Positions 35,495 to 44,145 of a DNA stretch of 64,000 nucleotides are shown here, in pieces. This DNA is from Bacillus sp. RO3 (GTDB lineage: Bacteria > Bacillota > Bacilli > Bacillales > Bacillaceae_B): positions 1-64,000 of the forward strand of contig NZ_JAAXCV010000022.1 in NCBI RefSeq assembly GCF_012911895.1, written 5' to 3'. The notes under the pieces were generated by a model, which saw nothing but the letters and a program-made list of their open reading frames with translations, did not search any database and was not told the DNA's origin. Each line of letters opens with the position of its first letter. The first letter of the stretch is position 1. The translations under genes and the position numbers were made by a program.

Positions 35495-36484
35495 ATGAAC
35501 AATTCAGAAGAACAATTAATAACTGAACTTGCTGGGTATATATCGTCACTGGTCCCAATTAATGTGGAAGATACGAGAAACAAGTTGTCCTCAATCATGA
35601 CTGACTACCATGTCACAAAAGTGGATAAACATGAAACTCACCCTGATCTGGATGAGAAAATAAATATGTATCTCTCTTCAAAAAGATTGGAAGGATTAAG
35701 TCCTATCACACTTCAAGGTTATGAGCTGGAACTAAATACATTTACAAAGCATGTAAAGAAGAAGGTTGAGAACATCACTACTTCAGATATAAGGATATAT
35801 TTAGGTAACTTCCCACACCTGAAAATGAGTACATTAGGAAGAAAATTATCTGTCTCTAAAAGCTTCTTTGGATGGCTCGCAGCAGAAGAGATTATTCAAC
35901 GGGACCCTACAAAGAAGCTGAAGCCTCCTAAAGAGGAGAAAAGACTTCCGAAGGCACTTACCATAGAAGAACTTGAAATGCTTCGTGAGGCATGCGTGAC
36001 AGTACGACAAAGGGCATTCATTGAAATACTTTATGCTACTGGTTGCCGGCTATCTGAAGTCCATGGTTTGAATAAGAGACATGTAAATCAACAAACAATG
36101 AGTTGCTGTGTAATTGGAAAAGGAGATAAGGAAAGGGAAGTGTACTTTTCCTTCAAAGCCATGTACCACATGAATAAATATTTCAAGAGCCGTGAGGATG
36201 ACTGTGAAGCTCTTATGGTGACTGAGAGAAAGCCATATAGACGGTTATCTAAAAGAGGTATCCAAAGAGAAATATCAGTTATTGCTGCAAGAGCAGGACT
36301 TGAAAAAAAGGTAAGCCCTCACACATTGAGGCACACTTTTGCAACGCTCACTTTAAACAATGGAGCTGAACTGGTTGCAGTCCAGGAGCTTCTCGGCCAT
36401 TCAAGTAGTGAGACAACTTTGAGATATGCAAGAATCACAGAAGAGAGAAAAAGAGATCAACATAAAAAATTCTTAGTTCAATAA
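35495..36484 (+). CDS. XerC/D-like tyrosine recombinase
   Basis: A 329-residue tyrosine recombinase with an N-terminal SAM-like core-binding domain (residues about 50-135) and a complete catalytic set: R185 (ATGCRLSE), K209 or K212, H276 and R279 (HTLRH), H302 (LGHSS) and Y311. Length and motifs resemble XerD rather than a classical lambda integrase, and no N-terminal arm-binding domain is visible. It may integrate or excise the prophage, or resolve dimers of a circular phage form. Its place between tail and lysis genes is far from the attachment site. Confidence 0.9.
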   Translation: MNNSEEQLITELAGYISSLVPINVEDTRNKLSSIMTDYHVTKVDKHETHPDLDEKINMYLSSKRLEGLSPITLQGYELELNTFTKHVKKKVENITTSDIRIYLGNFPHLKMSTLGRKLSVSKSFFGWLAAEEIIQRDPTKKLKPPKEEKRLPKALTIEELEMLREACVTVRQRAFIEILYATGCRLSEVHGLNKRHVNQQTMSCCVIGKGDKEREVYFSFKAMYHMNKYFKSREDDCEALMVTERKPYRRLSKRGIQREISVIAARAGLEKKVSPHTLRHTFATLTLNNGAELVAVQELLGHSSSETTLRYARITEERKRDQHKKFLVQ

Positions 36485-36598: not shown

Positions 36599-36997
36599 AT
36601 GTTAGGAGCAACCAGCGTGGACAAACAACCAGCAGAATTATTAGTTTACGGATTCGACATAACAAATGTAGTGGGGAACTTTTGGTATGTAGCAATAGTC
36701 TTTATTTTATTCGATGTCCTTACCGGGCTATTGGCAGCAGGAGCAGAGAGAAAGATAAACTCATCCATCAACTTTATAGGCTTAATTCGAAAGGTAGCGT
36801 TATTCGTGGCGCTAGCTTTTTTAGTTTTCATTGATGCTTACTTTGGTGCTCAAGGAAATCTAATTAAAGTTGGTGTAGGGTTGATCGTCGCTTATGAAGG
36901 TATCAGCATCATTGAAAACTTCAGCCGTATTGGAATTGACGTGAAGTTTCTGACGAAGTATTTTGATCCGAATAAGATTAGAAAGGATGATAGGTAA
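36599..36997 (+). CDS. Holin (phage_holin_4 / toxin secretion holin family)
   Basis: A 132-residue membrane protein with about three predicted membrane helices (FWYVAIVFILFDVLTGLLAAG, IRKVALFVALAFLVFIDAYF, LIKVGVGLIVAYEGISII). This is the common holin family of Bacillus and clostridial phages. It releases or activates the endolysin by forming membrane lesions. The stop overlaps the amidase start (TAATG). Confidence 0.9.
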   Translation: MLGATSVDKQPAELLVYGFDITNVVGNFWYVAIVFILFDVLTGLLAAGAERKINSSINFIGLIRKVALFVALAFLVFIDAYFGAQGNLIKVGVGLIVAYEGISIIENFSRIGIDVKFLTKYFDPNKIRKDDR

Positions 36998-37899
36998 TGG
37001 CGATCGAACTAAATTATAAGAAAAAGCATATCAAAAAGCACTGGTCCACTCGAACAGGCCTTAAACTTTTAAGGGTACAAGCAGGGATTGACCATTGGAC
37101 GGCCAACTTTGGAGCTTCAGCAGAAGGTCATCACAAGTATTTTGATGAAACCTTGCCGGATCAGAACGACAGGGAGAGAGCCTCGGCTCGCCGGGAGGGC
37201 AGGAAAGAAAAAATCAGGTATGCTTCAGCTCATATATTTGTGGATCGGTTTAAGGCGTTGGAATTAGTACCATTAGACGAAGTTTGCTTTGGAGCGAATG
37301 AACGGGTTGCTGGGCCACTTTTGTCTGCATTAAGGGCTACACACCCTAAGTATCCTGGCGGAAATGCAAACCTTTTATGTATCCACATTGAAATGTGTGT
37401 GGAGCCGGATGGAACAATTCATCCAGATACTATCAGACGAACAGCGTTAGTTCACCAGTATCTACAAAGGTTGTATCCTCAACTAAAGGATACTTACAAC
37501 CGTTTTGTGCGTCACTTTGATGTTACTGGAAAGAACTGTCCGGCTCCAATGGTGAAGGATCAATCTTTATATAAATATCTGCTTGATATGACTTCAGGTA
37601 AAGTTGAAATTAATCCAAAGGCTAAAACACAGCAAAAGGAGGAAGAAGAAATGATTAAAATGGCAGTAGTAGTCTATTCAGATGCAGATTTAAGCGTAGG
37701 GTATGATTTAGCAAATGAAAAGAAATGTGGTCTTTACACTAGAAAGTCCTTGGCAAATGAAGCGCTGAAGATCAACGAGCTGATGGTGGTTGGTGGACCG
37801 ACAGAAGGGTTGGAGAAAAAGACAAACCGAGTTATAGACCTATCTGGTGCAAATCGTTGGGAAACTCGGAAGAAAGTTATTTCATATCTAGGTAAGTAA
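36997..37899 (+). CDS. N-acetylmuramoyl-L-alanine amidase (endolysin)
   Basis: A 300-residue endolysin. The N-terminal amidase_2 domain has zinc-ligand candidates in GIDHWTANFG, the AHIFVD segment and HFDVTGKNCPAP. After a charged linker (KTQQKEEEEM) the C-terminal part (MAVVVYSDADLSVGYDLANEK ... GANRWETRKKV) looks like a putative cell-wall binding repeat 2 domain. No signal peptide is present, so release depends on the holin encoded upstream. Confidence 0.9.
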   Translation: MAIELNYKKKHIKKHWSTRTGLKLLRVQAGIDHWTANFGASAEGHHKYFDETLPDQNDRERASARREGRKEKIRYASAHIFVDRFKALELVPLDEVCFGANERVAGPLLSALRATHPKYPGGNANLLCIHIEMCVEPDGTIHPDTIRRTALVHQYLQRLYPQLKDTYNRFVRHFDVTGKNCPAPMVKDQSLYKYLLDMTSGKVEINPKAKTQQKEEEEMIKMAVVVYSDADLSVGYDLANEKKCGLYTRKSLANEALKINELMVVGGPTEGLEKKTNRVIDLSGANRWETRKKVISYLGK

Positions 37900-38770: not shown

Positions 38771-38855
38771 TTTGGGTAAATTTAATTGGGACCTGCATTT
38801 CAGAGTCATACCGGTCATACCATGAAATATAGGCAGATAACCAGGAGGCGATTTG

Positions 38856-39152
38856 ATGAGTAACAAAATAATCAAATCAGTATCGTTCAATGTGACTAAT
38901 GAAGATGATAAAAAGATGCTTAAGCATTTGAAGAAGAGGAATTTCAGCGGTTATGTTAAAAAGTTGATCATGAGAGATATTGAATTAAAAGGTGTGAGAG
39001 AAGGAGGGGTTACTGAATCAAACATGTCGATGGTTCTTAAAGAAGAAAAGAAATTAACTGCAGCTGAACGACTTGAACAATTAAAAAAGGAGCGGATAAC
39101 CGCCCCGGAACGCATCACGTTGAAAGTCGATGGGAAGAACCAAGAATTTTAA
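38856..39152 (+). CDS. Ribbon-helix-helix protein of the right-arm module
   Basis: A 98-residue protein. The N-terminus (KSVSFNVTNEDDKKMLKHL, RNFSGYVKKLIMRDI) has the strand-helix-helix pattern of plasmid ParR/CopG-like DNA-binding proteins, followed by a charged helical tail. ATG 38856 is 7 bases after CAGGAGGCG. It heads the transcript leading to the pilin-like, M23 and ATPase genes. A partition or relaxosome-accessory-like role would fit but is inferred. Confidence 0.65.
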   Translation: MSNKIIKSVSFNVTNEDDKKMLKHLKKRNFSGYVKKLIMRDIELKGVREGGVTESNMSMVLKEEKKLTAAERLEQLKKERITAPERITLKVDGKNQEF

Positions 39153-39214
39153 CCAACGAATGAATTCACTGCAAGGCCGATGCCATATCCAACAATTAGC
39201 GCAGCAATAAACAT
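39149..39214 (-). CDS. Possible 21-residue membrane micropeptide
   Basis: ATG 39214 to TAA 39149 on the minus strand encodes MFIAALIVGYGIGLAVNSFVG, a single hydrophobic helix with a GYGIG packing motif. AAGGAAGTGA lies just upstream. Its stop overlaps the stop of the convergent ribbon-helix-helix gene. It is too short for confidence on coding signals alone. Confidence 0.35.
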   Translation of the reverse strand: MFIAALIVGYGIGLAVNSFVG

Positions 39215-39291
39215 GTCATCACTTCCTTATGAATAATTGCTTTTAGCTTGACCTGTTTATGATGATTTATACACGAAGGGAGAAGTTGATA

Positions 39292-39636
39292 ATGGCAAAG
39301 ACAGAAACCATTGCATTTAACGATTTTATGAATAATGAAAGGAAAGATGGCAAAGCTTCACCAGTCAAAAAAGTCTTGTCATCGTCTGGATCTATCGCTT
39401 TAATGACTATGCCAAGGATGGCCATGGCTGCTAGTGCGGATGCCACTTTCGGTAACGTTCATGGAGCCATCATGAACGTGTTTGATGCTGGCGTCGTATT
39501 AGTCATAATTTTCGCAGGAGCTTCTTGGGGCCTGGGGCACCGTACAAAAGCAATTGAGATCCTTATAGGTGTATGTTGCGGATATATCTTGGCACGCCAT
39601 GCAGTAGATATCAGGGACTTTTTAAAGGGGATATAG
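39292..39636 (+). CDS. Pilin-like (VirB2/TrbC-type) two-helix membrane protein
   Basis: A 114-residue protein: a basic N-terminus, a hydrophobic stretch ending PRMAMAASADA (signal-like with an AxA site), then two membrane helices (VFDAGVVLVIIFAGASWGLG and AIEILIGVCCGYILARH) joined by a short charged loop. The same topology is seen in VirB2/TrbC pilins of conjugation systems. No sequence-level family match is claimed. ATG 39292 follows AAGGGAG. It is followed within 5 bases by the M23 gene. Confidence 0.55.
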   Translation: MAKTETIAFNDFMNNERKDGKASPVKKVLSSSGSIALMTMPRMAMAASADATFGNVHGAIMNVFDAGVVLVIIFAGASWGLGHRTKAIEILIGVCCGYILARHAVDIRDFLKGI

Positions 39637-39640
39637 GAAT

Positions 39641-40348
39641 ATGATTACCAAAATAGGCGGAATTGTTATCTCTTCAGGATTTGGAGCAACAGAAAGTTTT
39701 CGCAGGCATCCGCATACAGGTGTCGATATTCCGATGGAAAGTAATAGTATTTTACAGACGTTCACAGATGGCGTTGTAACCAAAGTTTTTGATGGCTCTA
39801 CAGACATCGGTAATGGCATTGCAATTAAGACTAAAGATGGAATGACTCACATCTATGGTCACCTAAACAAAACCGCTGTGGAAGAGGGAGATAAGTTGCG
39901 CGCTGGGGATATTATCGGTTTAAGCGGTAATACCGGTAAATCAACAGGTCCGCATCTTCATTTCGCTACACAAAATGCCGATGGTTCATTTGAGGACCCA
40001 TCTGAACTTGTAGATAAATTAGCTTACTTTAACCCTGAAAAAGGCTTAACGGCTAAGATAGGTGATTGGTTTGCGAATAGGGGAGAGGTGGACCAATATG
40101 GTCACGCTGTAAAATCAGGAGAGCATCCATTTTGGGATTGGGTTGGAGGTAACGTCAATGATGGATTGTTGTATTTGTGGGATCAGTTTGTTTTCTGCCT
40201 ACCCGATATTATCGGTTATACCACTATAGGTGCTGGCATATTTATAATATTGGGATCGATGATTGGAAAAGGAGGCATGTTAAAACCACTTGCATTCTGG
40301 AGCGGAATTGTCATTACAGCAATTTGCATCTTGATGGGAGGATCATAA
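39641..40348 (+). CDS. Membrane-anchored M23 (LytM-type) peptidase
   Basis: A 235-residue protein. The N-terminal catalytic domain has the complete M23 zinc set: H25 and D29 (HPHTGVD), H74 (YGHL), H105 and H107 (GPHLHF). The C-terminal third carries two predicted membrane helices (IIGYTTIGAGIFIILGSMI, PLAFWSGIVITAICILMG). No N-terminal signal is visible, so topology is uncertain. It would cut peptidoglycan cross-bridges locally, the job of the wall hydrolase in conjugation machines. It lies two bases before the ATPase gene. Confidence 0.85.
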   Translation: MITKIGGIVISSGFGATESFRRHPHTGVDIPMESNSILQTFTDGVVTKVFDGSTDIGNGIAIKTKDGMTHIYGHLNKTAVEEGDKLRAGDIIGLSGNTGKSTGPHLHFATQNADGSFEDPSELVDKLAYFNPEKGLTAKIGDWFANRGEVDQYGHAVKSGEHPFWDWVGGNVNDGLLYLWDQFVFCLPDIIGYTTIGAGIFIILGSMIGKGGMLKPLAFWSGIVITAICILMGGS

Positions 40349-40349
40349 A

Positions 40350-42911
40350 ATGACCGAACAGTTACCGATCGTTTGGCAAACAGAAAATGCGGGCGTACCT
40401 GCTTTGTATAATGGCGGACTACCAGCTGAATTTAAAGTCCGAGAAGTAAAACAACCTTGGTTAAAAAAGAAAGTCAAAAGACTAAAGTGGAAAGACTTTT
40501 TCGAAGTGGAGAAAAACCATATGGTCGTTTACCGTATTATTCCTCATGTCGGTGTAACAAATAACAATAAGAGGCTGTGGAAATCATTATATAAAATGTT
40601 CGAAATGTACAGTAGTTTAGGATCCCGGCTGGAACGGGATGGATGGAAGTTTATTTATAGGGAAAAGGATTATTTTTGGTTTGAAGTCATTTTCCGGCAG
40701 GATAAAGGGGAAAGAAAAATTGAGTTCTACGTTTCAACTTCAGAGTACCAGGCGATAAAGTTGAAAAGGAAAATTGAAAACAAGATGGCCGTTACATTCA
40801 AAGAGGCGTCACTTGAAGACATCCATATACCGACTGAAAATACCATAGTGCAAGAAATGAAATACTTAAAACATGACATATTCTCTTTGAACACAAATAG
40901 CAACGAAAGCCAGACTCCAGTTGCTTCAATAATGAACACAGTCGAGGAACTGCAGTTTGATGGAGATATTGCTCGATTAAGTATTTGTGCGGAAGCTGAG
41001 AATCGTCAGAAGTGGGTTAAAAATGCTCAGTGGGCAATGGAGAAGTTACAGAAGGGGAAAGTACCTCAGCGGGCAAATATAAGTGGTAAGCAAGTGAACA
41101 AAGCTATAAAATCAGGTATCGTAGGGACTATAAACGAAATCAATGATCTGCTGGTCGACACGTTCCAGGCGATAAGTAATGTTTTCTTTAAATCAGAAAA
41201 AGAATTCAAAAAGGAGAAGGTTATCGAAAAGGGGTATAGTCTGGAAGATGAGATTGCTTCTACAAGATTGAGTAACGCTAGTCGTGACAAGATGAATTTA
41301 CCCGTTTTTAAAACACGCATTCGAGTAGCTGCCCACTCTTCTGACCGATTGACTCGGGAGACTTTAGGGGAAACCCTCGCTCTCTCCATGAACGATGTTT
41401 CAGAAAACAACGAACTTCATGGGATTAAGATTCGAGTGAATGGCCGTCGCATTGAAGCAATCAATGAGCTGAATACCTTTACTCTCTCACGAAAAACAAA
41501 ACTGGATGCAAACGTCAATTTGGTTTCATCTGATGAAATGAGTAAACTTGCTTTGCAAATACCAGGCAGAGAGCTACAACAACGTTACTCTGACGAGTTA
41601 AATACAAAGAAGCGAGTGGAAACGAGTGTGCCAGCTGTCTTACAGAATCCTAACAATCTAATGCTTGGGGTTGCTGAGTTTAAAGACCAGGTCATACCGG
41701 TAGGACTGCAGCCGAATGAGAAAGAAGAATTTTATTGCGGATATACCTTCATCGGCAAGCAGGGAGCCGGGAAGGATAACGCCATTCAAAACTTTGTCTA
41801 TGAAGGAGCCATGAAGCACGGCATTTCATTCGTAGTACCTGATTGGATATGTCAGTCGGGTCATAAAGGAATGGCTGACGGAATTAGGGACCTTCTGCCG
41901 CCGGATAAGGTCATCGACTTAGATCTATCAAACGAGGAATGGATTATACCGATGGATCTAACGGAAGTAATCGAAAAGTTAGGAAGGAAAGGCGGGTCAC
42001 GTTTTGCCTCTGAAATGATTGATTTCATGAATCTGGGCGGTCTTGCAAGGTCGGAAAAGTATTTGACTGAAGCAGCCAAAGCTTCTAGAGGATCACTTCA
42101 TAATATCAAGAGGATCATTGAGGATGAAGAATACAGATTGAAACGAATTGAAGAATTAATGATTTTCGGTAATATGCGCCTAGCGAATGATTTGATTCAG
42201 TGGGGCACGAATGACGAGCTGGGTGGGAAGGCAGATGCCATACTCAATCGATTAAATCAGTTCTTCGGGGACGATACCCTTTATGACATTTTCTCGCAGG
42301 GACCAAAGAATGAAGTGGATTTTGAAAAGTGGATGAAAGAAGGGAAGACGATCATCATCCGGATGCCAAAAAGGAAATTAGGTCATTCAAGCAATACGTT
42401 GGCCCACTGGGTCACGCTGAAGGTTCTTATGACAAGGATGCTTATGACAGAAGAAGATAAGGATCGCCATGGGTGTTTTATGTTATTCAACGAGCCGGAG
42501 CAAGTGGAGTCGAAAGGACTGGCTCAGCTGATGGGTAGAATAGCGACAGAGGGAAGAAAAGAACGCCTGGGATCCATATTCGCATTCCACCATTGGGATA
42601 AACTACCGGACTATCTCCAAGATAACTTAATTGCAGGCGGTGTGAATCAGTTCCTATTTGCAAACGATCATAAAAAGACCTTCGAGAAAGCCAAGGAGCG
42701 TCTGCAACCTACCTTTACTGTTGAGGAGGCTATGCAAACACCAAAACATTACTCAATCGCCATACTGAACACCAAGGAGCCTTTACATGCGTTTATGATT
42801 CATATGTCTCCACCGGTCCCTGAAGATAAGAGGTATGATAACTCTTTCCTCACAAAAAGACACGCTCAGCTTTACGGTAGGTTCTGGCAAGATCTGCAGG
42901 GGATTATTTGA
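40350..42911 (+). CDS. VirD4/FtsK-superfamily DNA-translocase-like ATPase
   Basis: An 853-residue protein. The N-terminal 450 residues are unassigned but resemble the long N-terminal part of HerA/TraG-like proteins of Gram-positive plasmids. The ATPase domain has Walker A GKQGAGKD at 469-476 and a Walker B-like FMLFNEPE with N714-E715, where Asp-Glu is usual. A downstream segment (GRIATEGRKERLGSIFAFHHWDKL) matches the sensor region of VirD4 ATPases. No membrane helix is evident. I infer a hexameric pump for DNA or a nucleoprotein, working with the pilin-like and M23 proteins. Confidence 0.75.
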   Translation: MTEQLPIVWQTENAGVPALYNGGLPAEFKVREVKQPWLKKKVKRLKWKDFFEVEKNHMVVYRIIPHVGVTNNNKRLWKSLYKMFEMYSSLGSRLERDGWKFIYREKDYFWFEVIFRQDKGERKIEFYVSTSEYQAIKLKRKIENKMAVTFKEASLEDIHIPTENTIVQEMKYLKHDIFSLNTNSNESQTPVASIMNTVEELQFDGDIARLSICAEAENRQKWVKNAQWAMEKLQKGKVPQRANISGKQVNKAIKSGIVGTINEINDLLVDTFQAISNVFFKSEKEFKKEKVIEKGYSLEDEIASTRLSNASRDKMNLPVFKTRIRVAAHSSDRLTRETLGETLALSMNDVSENNELHGIKIRVNGRRIEAINELNTFTLSRKTKLDANVNLVSSDEMSKLALQIPGRELQQRYSDELNTKKRVETSVPAVLQNPNNLMLGVAEFKDQVIPVGLQPNEKEEFYCGYTFIGKQGAGKDNAIQNFVYEGAMKHGISFVVPDWICQSGHKGMADGIRDLLPPDKVIDLDLSNEEWIIPMDLTEVIEKLGRKGGSRFASEMIDFMNLGGLARSEKYLTEAAKASRGSLHNIKRIIEDEEYRLKRIEELMIFGNMRLANDLIQWGTNDELGGKADAILNRLNQFFGDDTLYDIFSQGPKNEVDFEKWMKEGKTIIIRMPKRKLGHSSNTLAHWVTLKVLMTRMLMTEEDKDRHGCFMLFNEPEQVESKGLAQLMGRIATEGRKERLGSIFAFHHWDKLPDYLQDNLIAGGVNQFLFANDHKKTFEKAKERLQPTFTVEEAMQTPKHYSIAILNTKEPLHAFMIHMSPPVPEDKRYDNSFLTKRHAQLYGRFWQDLQGII

Positions 42912-42920
42912 ACAATAAAA

Positions 42921-42943
42921 AAGAGCCCTTCGATTGGGCTCTT
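42921..42943. terminator. Bidirectional terminator between ATPase and lipoprotein genes
   Basis: AAGAGCCC (42921-42928) and GGGCTCTT (42936-42943) form an 8-bp stem; an A-run precedes it, which serves the convergent minus-strand gene. Confidence 0.75.
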
Positions 42944-43448
42944 ACTGAATACTCACTTCTCTGATTACGTAACCGTCTTCAGGCTCGCCGTTGCCATTAT
43001 CTACAGTGGCACCTTCAACAATCAATTCAACATCTTGTTGGCTACCTTCAGCGCGATCAACAGTGGCATTGTATTTAAAAACTTTACTGTAGCTTTCTCC
43101 ATCCCAAAGCTCTAAGGTGTTTTCGTCATCCTGGATGACCTCGAAAGAAGAAAATTGCTTTTTTTGATCTTTTTTAAATTCATCAAAATTTGAAAAGTTT
43201 TTAGTATCAACCAGTTTCCAGTTATGTGATGTATACAAAAACGTTTTCTTCTTTTGATCAAGCTCCTCTGACCCAGTTAATTCGTAGTCGGAAATCCCCT
43301 CTAATTCATTACCAGAATATAAATCGTAGTTCGCTTCACCATCGACTAGATCATCCAGGTAGGTAGTGACCACCTCTTCAGATTCATTATTACCTGAGCA
43401 TGCTGTTAGAGTAATTGATGATAATAAAATGATGACCCACTTTTTCAT
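42942..43448 (-). CDS. Prophage-encoded lipoprotein at the right edge
   Basis: A 168-residue secreted lipoprotein with a lipobox (LTAC, Cys at residue 17) after a basic start and hydrophobic core, then an acidic soluble domain. It is transcribed from the prophage edge inward, against all neighbouring phage genes, the classic placement of a gene expressed in the lysogen. Superinfection exclusion is known for edge-encoded phage lipoproteins such as Ltp of phage TP-J34; whether this one does so is unknown. No family is recognised. Confidence 0.75.
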   Translation of the reverse strand: MKKWVIILLSSITLTACSGNNESEEVVTTYLDDLVDGEANYDLYSGNELEGISDYELTGSEELDQKKKTFLYTSHNWKLVDTKNFSNFDEFKKDQKKQFSSFEVIQDDENTLELWDGESYSKVFKYNATVDRAEGSQQDVELIVEGATVDNGNGEPEDGYVIREVSIQ

Positions 43449-43713: not shown

Positions 43714-44145
43714 ATGGTGGGGGAGATTAGAGATAGGGAGACGGCGGAAATCGCAGTGAGGGCCGCATTAACGGGACACTTAGTCATTACGACCATGCAT
43801 ACCAGGGATGCAAAAGGTGCGATTTATCGTTTGATGGAATTAGGAATCGAGTGGCATGATATTGAACAAACGTTGCTGGCTGTCTCAGCCCAGCGATTAT
43901 TAAAGCTGGTCTGTCCCGTTTGTCATACGGAATGTGGAGGAAAATGCCTTCCTGGTAAAAACGTCTACAGGGCCTCAGTCTATGAAATTCTAACTGGAAG
44001 GGATTTAAAAGAAGTGTTGAAGGAAGCGAAGGGAGAGTGTGGATTGTATCGGTACGACACACTTCAGACATTGATCAATAAGGGGGTGGCACTTGGATTT
44101 GTTTCAGAACTTGAATATAAGAAATGGGTACATGAAGAAAAATGA
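43702..44145 (+). pseudogene. comGA: comGA, C-terminal remnant disrupted by prophage
   Basis: ComGA is the hexameric GspE-type ATPase that powers assembly of the competence pseudopilus. Only the part from the Walker B motif onward remains (PDIIMVGEIRDRETAEIAVRA, the His-box GHLVITTMHT, and the Cys motif CPVCHTECGGKC), about 147 codons. The N-terminal part with Walker A must lie left of the window. The first ATG (43714) has no ribosome site, so no functional protein is expected. Precise excision would restore the gene. Confidence 0.92.

Follow-up and report, generated by a model that had tools for sequence, protein, structure and literature searches.

Genes and conservation of the module

In a 64,000-nucleotide stretch of DNA from Bacillus sp. 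RO3 (contig NZ_JAAXCV010000022.1, positions 1 to 64,000; hereafter the window), we investigated a module of plus-strand genes at 38856-42911 which forms the end of a prophage and whose products recall parts of DNA-transfer machines. The module and its associated features are given below with their counterparts in phage SPP1 (aa, amino acids; RHH, ribbon-helix-helix; TM, transmembrane).

38806..38821, plus strand: tandem 9-bp repeat TCATACC-G-GTCATACC, conserved in relatives before the RHH gene
38856..39152, plus strand: RHH-like gene, 98 aa, predicted small ribbon-helix-helix-like DNA-binding protein, counterpart of gp31
39149..39214, minus strand: unannotated gene of a predicted 21-aa hydrophobic membrane microprotein, MFIAALIVGYGIGLAVNSFVG, convergent with the RHH gene
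39292..39636, plus strand: pilin-like gene, 114 aa, putative TrbC/VirB2-like prepilin, counterpart of gp31.1
39641..40348, plus strand: M23 peptidase domain fused to a C-terminal two-TM protein, 235 aa, counterpart of gp31.2
40350..42911, plus strand: ATPase assigned to the VirB4/TrwB/HerA superfamily, with GKD and NE Walker motifs, 853 aa, counterpart of gp32

The four open reading frames (ORFs) of the module are all intact. A preliminary description of this DNA had them following one another almost without gaps, which is true of the last three genes (gaps of 4 and 1 bp); the RHH and pilin-like genes are separated by 139 bp, and this interval holds the antisense microgene. An in-frame TTG at 38853 lies 3 bases 5' of the RHH gene start, and the mechanical ORF of the pilin-like gene starts at 39259.

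Conservation was examined at 103 ATPase loci, with 40 of the matches in the genome set taken at length and the short copies L027-L056 replaced by longer stretches. These loci formed 83 clusters, 61 of which had an ATPase profile score above 300, and 58 of these had enough upstream sequence; the 22 low-scoring clusters include one broken ATPase gene (L062). Upstream of the ATPase in the 58 representative loci we found a pilin-like gene in 48, an RHH gene in 47, a two-TM gene in 28 and an actin-like partition gene in 14, with the last downstream in 2 more. In the 34 closest loci, defined as clusters at 95% identity with a profile score above 930 and at least 2.4 kb of upstream sequence (2 more were dropped because theirs was short), the pilin-like gene was present in 34/34, the RHH gene in 29/34 and the two-TM gene in 28/34, more often than chance would give and in agreement with the proposed co-occurrence of the four genes. 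The preliminary description had also called the four a complete set, and on this point it has to be narrowed: the genes do co-occur, and the M23 part is not always present, since an ORF with the M23 catalytic motifs was found upstream in 21 of the 58 loci and was fused to the two-TM protein in 14. Catalytic motifs were used for this count because the M23 profile drifted onto the two-TM domain. In phages GBK2 and 000TH010 the third gene codes for the two-TM part alone. As read from these sequences, the two-TM protein may or may not carry a fused M23 domain, so that the core set consists of the RHH, pilin-like, two-TM and ATPase genes.

Among the clusters scoring below 300, Replic_Relax was found in 16/22 and a pilin or RHH gene in 0/22; among the 61 clusters above this score, Replic_Relax was found in SPO1 only. 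In SPO1 (L015 5971-11481), an actin-like gene, small TM proteins, the ATPase gp27.4 and the Replic_Relax protein gp27.3 stand in one cluster, which bridges the phage module and the ATPase pair of integrative elements; a pilin-profile match 2.6 kb away is doubtful. At loci L154-L161, which are integrative elements, the distant ATPase adjoins Replic_Relax, and several of them also have large recombinase-like genes in the vicinity.

Component proteins and associated sites

The ATPase belongs to phrog_5156 (1.1e-258), a PHROGs family of unknown function. It matched no Pfam family above the cut-off, a scan at E up to 1 listing DUF2500 only, and it did not match the FtsK/SpoIIIE family PF01580. The AlphaFold model of the protein (predicted local distance difference test score, pLDDT, 81) showed a VirB4/TrwB/HerA fold, the closest PDB structures being VirB4, DndH, HerA and TrwB in fold lists (VIA/Foldseek) where absence of a fold is not proof against it. 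The preliminary description had seen no VirB4; this does not stand, as the modelled ATPase has a VirB4-like fold and its matches to VirB4 structures are no worse than those to VirD4/TrwB. We looked for both results that would tell against that description, a lack of co-occurrence and an unrelated ATPase fold, and found neither.

The unusual N-E Walker B noted earlier is indeed present, the window ATPase reading FNEPEQ, and we found also that its P-loop, which had escaped notice, is GKQGAGKD. In 210 readable proteins (120 close homologues from a protein search and 90 others; 1 more was gapped), GKD was always paired with NE (158 proteins) and GK(S/T) with DE (52), with 0 mixed cases. In a tree of 87 sequences, built without the Walker columns concerned, the 38 GKD/NE tips formed one clade (support 0.958) requiring one change, and the pairing is thus a single evolutionary event and not repeated covariation. 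The catalytic Glu and the P-loop Lys were invariant in a 25-row alignment, so that N-E alone does not imply a dead enzyme. The swap offers a clean natural test case for how P-loops coordinate metal.

The pilin-like protein belongs to phrog_5422 (5.2e-25), also without function. Its match to the TrbC family PF04956 was below the gathering score (E 0.031, 14.9-15.1 bits; cut-off 27.9); across the family, PF04956 (TrbC/VirB2) weakly matched 46/52 members at E up to 1, with a best value of 2.8e-5, and one relative, P0224, is annotated with PF04956 in the protein database. The family sequences read as a hydrophobic leader followed by a conserved Ala-X-Ala and a mature part with two hydrophobic stretches around an HRTK loop. 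In the window protein the predicted leader ends with AMA at about residue 46-47, and about 67 aa remain as the mature part, which has two helices; the structure model, confident in the mature part only, has helices at 24-80 and 84-113. The earlier remark that the parts resemble DNA-transfer machinery is right.

In the third protein, the M23 domain (PF01551, 2e-23) carries the zinc motifs HxxxD and HxH as HTGVD and HLHF, and the C-terminal part belongs to phrog_20592, a 117-aa phage family (5e-18). M23 also precedes distant ATPases in Alicyclobacillus phage MMB025, an A. dauci plasmid and phage vB_BboS-125.

The first protein is a member of phrog_17574 (8.9e-22, function unknown); its 98 residues suggest a ribbon-helix-helix protein, a reading made without family support. 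The repeat at 38806-38821 is probably its operator or anchor site. TCATACCGGTCATACC, at this position, is the only stretch of the window that fits the consensus without a mismatch, TMATANCGNTMATANC has one zero-mismatch match in the whole window, and a similar 9-bp tandem repeat lies 40-70 bp 5' of the RHH gene in relatives. With a relaxed consensus, which had been derived by eye from the very loci on which it was scored, 19/48 upstream regions reached at least 11/13 against 0.47 expected (18/29 in the closer clade). The separation comes only with this relaxed consensus: the strict pattern GTNNNACNNGTNNNAC was found in 4/48 upstream regions only, and a generic repeat test upstream of the RHH genes was negative (5/48 regions at p up to 0.05).

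The microgene is antisense, between the RHH and pilin genes, and in the window its stop overlaps the stop of the RHH gene; in GBK2 the corresponding ORF shares 20 bases with the end of the RHH gene. A profile built from 11 peptides matched 25 of 25,271 small ORFs at E<0.01, the seeds included, of which 23 were in the RHH-pilin gap and the other 2 (L060, L077) were antisense and directly 5' of the pilin gene. The microprotein was found in 17/36 GKD-clade clusters having upstream sequence. The window and GBK2 peptides are identical at 20/21 residues, with 15/54 bases differing, 12 of them in third positions; between the window and all other microgenes the differences by codon position are 66, 55 and 135. 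No PHROG matched the peptide at E up to 0.42, and nothing is annotated at this place in the GBK2 record. A conserved gene has in this way gone unannotated in phages that are otherwise well studied.

Phages, hosts and prophage setting

A tblastn search of 50,697 phage records with four divergent ATPases returned 58, 68, 52 and 61 records. By name these phages are of Bacillus, Geobacillus, Lysinibacillus, Alicyclobacillus, Brevibacillus (a record labelled from sputum) and Terrisporobacter, with the 'Deep-sea' phage D6E, given without host, and one of Microcystis. The six named genera from Bacillus to Terrisporobacter sporulate and Microcystis does not. Going by the names, phages with the ATPase have spore-forming hosts, with one odd label (Microcystis) as the exception; this cyanophage, MaeS (MT362618.1), carries a Slashvirus-like ATPase of the same family, and its label may be wrong. 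Among the ATPase matches in the 50,697 records there were no Staphylococcus, Listeria, Streptococcus, Enterococcus or Lactobacillus names; an SPO1 polymerase query, used as a control, returned 140 Staphylococcus, 21 Enterococcus and 21 Lactobacillus phage records. Only 3 plasmid records matched the ATPase.

In bacterial genomes, Spo0A_C was present in 68/68 ATPase-positive genomes, most of them distant matches, against 325/398 overall (p 2.4e-7), and in 18/18 genomes with module-type ATPases (p 0.024); both tests ignore phylogeny and are confounded by it, and membership was checked by eye, with 0 positives among 20 listed negatives. Contrary to this pattern, the ATPase profile also matched in families mostly without Spo0A_C (1/108, 22/333 and 0/29), and some members of the first of these have weak Spo0A_C matches. 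Eight of these 23 contrary loci were examined: the ATPase adjoins Replic_Relax in 8/8, and matches to the pilin, RHH, two-TM, M23 and actin profiles were 0; the other 15 all score at most 173 bits. Spore genes occur near relatives of the module, with a Spo0E-like gene beside the ATPase of vB_BpsM-61 and a spore protein gene on the A. dauci plasmid. Phage Bc431v3 is reported in the available text to carry an FtsK/SpoIIIE-like gene with sigF/sigG-like genes (PMC3601020).

Within the window, the lysis genes (holin PF05105, amidase PF01510; Pfam scan) lie at 36599-37899, before the module, and a C-terminal comGA fragment (PF00437) at 43714-44145, beyond it. The N-terminal comGA fragment is on another contig (L148 9513-10229), beside a tyrosine integrase (373 aa, L148 8343-9464), repressor-like genes and recT. 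The comGA halves at the two prophage ends place the integration site in comGA, so that the lysogen has a split gene for the ATPase of the competence pseudopilus; the left arm of the phage is not part of the window. A second tyrosine recombinase (XerD-like, PF00589) is coded at 35495-36484, between the tail and lysis genes. Between the ATPase gene and the right end, a minus-strand gene at 42942-43448 codes for a 168-aa lipoprotein-like protein without a family above the cut-off and with a weak resemblance to the superinfection-exclusion protein Cor in the signal region only. The early phage region holds, at 1501-2037, a DUF1256 protein (PF06866, 1.6e-60), which we take to be of a sporulation family and which PHROGs labels a spore protease.

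Proposed function and comparison with known systems

We propose, with a probability of roughly 55%, that the module is a phage translocon whose layout follows the inner-membrane core of a type IV secretion system (T4SS), acting as a phage DNA pump. The prepilin would be cleaved after its Ala-X-Ala leader and form a two-helix hairpin in the membrane, where the two-TM protein would dock the soluble ATPase; the M23 domain, when fused to the latter's anchor, would face outward and open the wall locally. The RHH protein may bind the repeat, regulate the operon and mark phage DNA, which a hexameric ATPase would drive across the envelope (less likely protein, or the pilin alone), with the microprotein as helper or inhibitor of the complex. 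Such a machine would be an accessory, unneeded for plaque growth, serving phages of endospore-formers.

Several results weigh against this proposal. The profiles PF03432 and PF02486 found 0 relaxases in the whole genome, with positive controls (other relaxase families and VirB6/VirB8 were not searched), and PF13814 also found 0, with its positive control silent. Ordinary conjugation was rejected on this ground. At E up to 1, the ATPase gave no match to the VirB4 N-terminal domain PF03135. This profile had matches in 0/61 Bacilli genomes (PF02534 in 7/61), and for that reason there is no Gram-positive VirB4 comparison set. Alignments by hhalign to single R388 sequences were weak (TrwK 0.3-1.8%, TrwB 9.4%, TrwL 0.7%), a Pfam scan of 27 two-TM members gave no VirB3 family, with 0.2% for TrwM by hhalign, and the pilin-like protein had no PDB match by sequence, nor by fold at E up to 0.001. 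A literature search, mostly without subscription journals, found no paper testing the module or proposing spore entry.

If the cargo is phage DNA, the forespore is the destination that we favour because of the host pattern, the actin partners and the spore genes, all of them indirect pointers. Virospore formation is described, in the available part of the source, as translocation of the phage genome into the spore (PMC9429907). A T4SS-derived translocon might load the genome into the developing spore: the RHH protein, with or without actin, would deliver the DNA to the polar septum, M23 would make a way through the septal wall, the ATPase would pump and the microprotein would tune the channel; this full scenario is tentative, and we hold it to be rather doubtful.

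Other explanations place the same proteins elsewhere. The RHH protein and a membrane complex might anchor or segregate an episomal phage genome in the manner of plasmid partition, and the actin-like genes upstream in 14/58 loci (and downstream in 2), as well as the grouping of an actin-like gene, ATPase and Replic_Relax in SPO1, point this way. We consider it unlikely, given that 44/58 loci have no actin-like gene upstream, that partition needs no wall peptidase, pilin or pump ATPase, and that the window phage is integrated in comGA, the one ALP_N match of the genome being on another contig. Secretion of a phage-encoded effector that keeps out superinfecting phages or is lethal to competitors appears improbable: VirB4-type ATPases also serve protein-secreting T4SS, and the SPP1 authors, in the available text, speak of macromolecules and not of DNA alone (PMC6316719), but we saw no conserved secreted cargo gene in the module, where the conserved extra gene codes for a 21-aa membrane peptide, and the RHH protein points to a DNA partner.

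The pilin-like protein might instead be packed in the particle and join the early ATPase in a port through which the remainder of the genome is drawn in during infection. TP84_47, the pilin-like protein of phage TP-84, is reported in purified particles by mass spectrometry in the available part of that study (PMC5889276), an observation that tells against a translocon insofar as it would be equally compatible with a virion protein or with filaments that co-purified, and the FtsK/SpoIIIE-like genes of phage Pony have been guessed to serve DNA injection (PMC3853050, from the accessible text). Against such an entry device, the same TP-84 text has the ATPase TP84_48 undetected in particles or infected cells, SPP1 genes 31.2 and 32 are reported non-essential and thus dispensable for growth (PMC6316719, as far as the available text goes), and an M23 protein without nearby tail genes would be atypical of entry enzymes; we give it a low probability. 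If the translocon reading is correct, many Bacillus-type phages, SPP1 and SPO1 included, own a built-in membrane translocon with an untried job, which would be the machine behind the old observation of spore-carried phage genomes or a route of particle-free phage DNA transfer.

Compared with the DNA pumps HerA, FtsK and TrwB, the window ATPase has the C-terminal RecA-type ATPase in common, whereas no all-alpha domain of TrwB or gamma domain of FtsK was identified in it, and in its clade the Walker A Ser/Thr is replaced by Asp and the Walker B Asp by Asn. The ATPases of the Replic_Relax pairs of integrative elements and of SPO1 gp27.4-gp27.3 are distant homologues (profile score at most 300 against above 300). 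The pilin-like, two-TM and ATPase genes parallel trwL-trwM-trwK (virB2-virB3-virB4) of R388 in order and in size (about 100 aa, 104 aa and 823 aa in R388), and share with the T4SS core the ATPase fold and the pilin architecture. They differ from it in that no relaxase was found, PF03135 is unmatched, the two-TM protein is without VirB3 similarity, so that it would be a VirB3 counterpart by position only, and the RHH and M23 parts are extra. By analogy, the module works like a T4SS-type translocon; conjugation itself is not shown, and the family tests do not establish the module as a T4SS, with no match to the relaxase profiles, PF03135 or VirB3 and a TrbC/VirB2 match below the gathering score.

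The closest known system is the gp31-gp32 module of SPP1, to which the window module belongs: genes 31, 31.1, 31.2 and 32 of SPP1 and genes 29-32 of GBK2 code for homologous RHH, pilin-like, two-TM and ATPase proteins in the same order. The SPP1-like and GBK2 two-TM proteins are without M23, whereas that of the window carries it. In the available text, Godinho et al. 2018 suggest that gp32 with gp31.1 and/or gp31.2 forms a transmembrane translocon (PMC6316719); the core of the present proposal therefore has a published precedent in SPP1. That text (PMC6316719) makes no mention of the microprotein, the repeat, the Walker swap or the host pattern. What the present analysis adds is the parallel with the T4SS gene order, the optional M23 domain, the Walker swap, the microprotein, the repeat before the RHH gene and the spore-former pattern.

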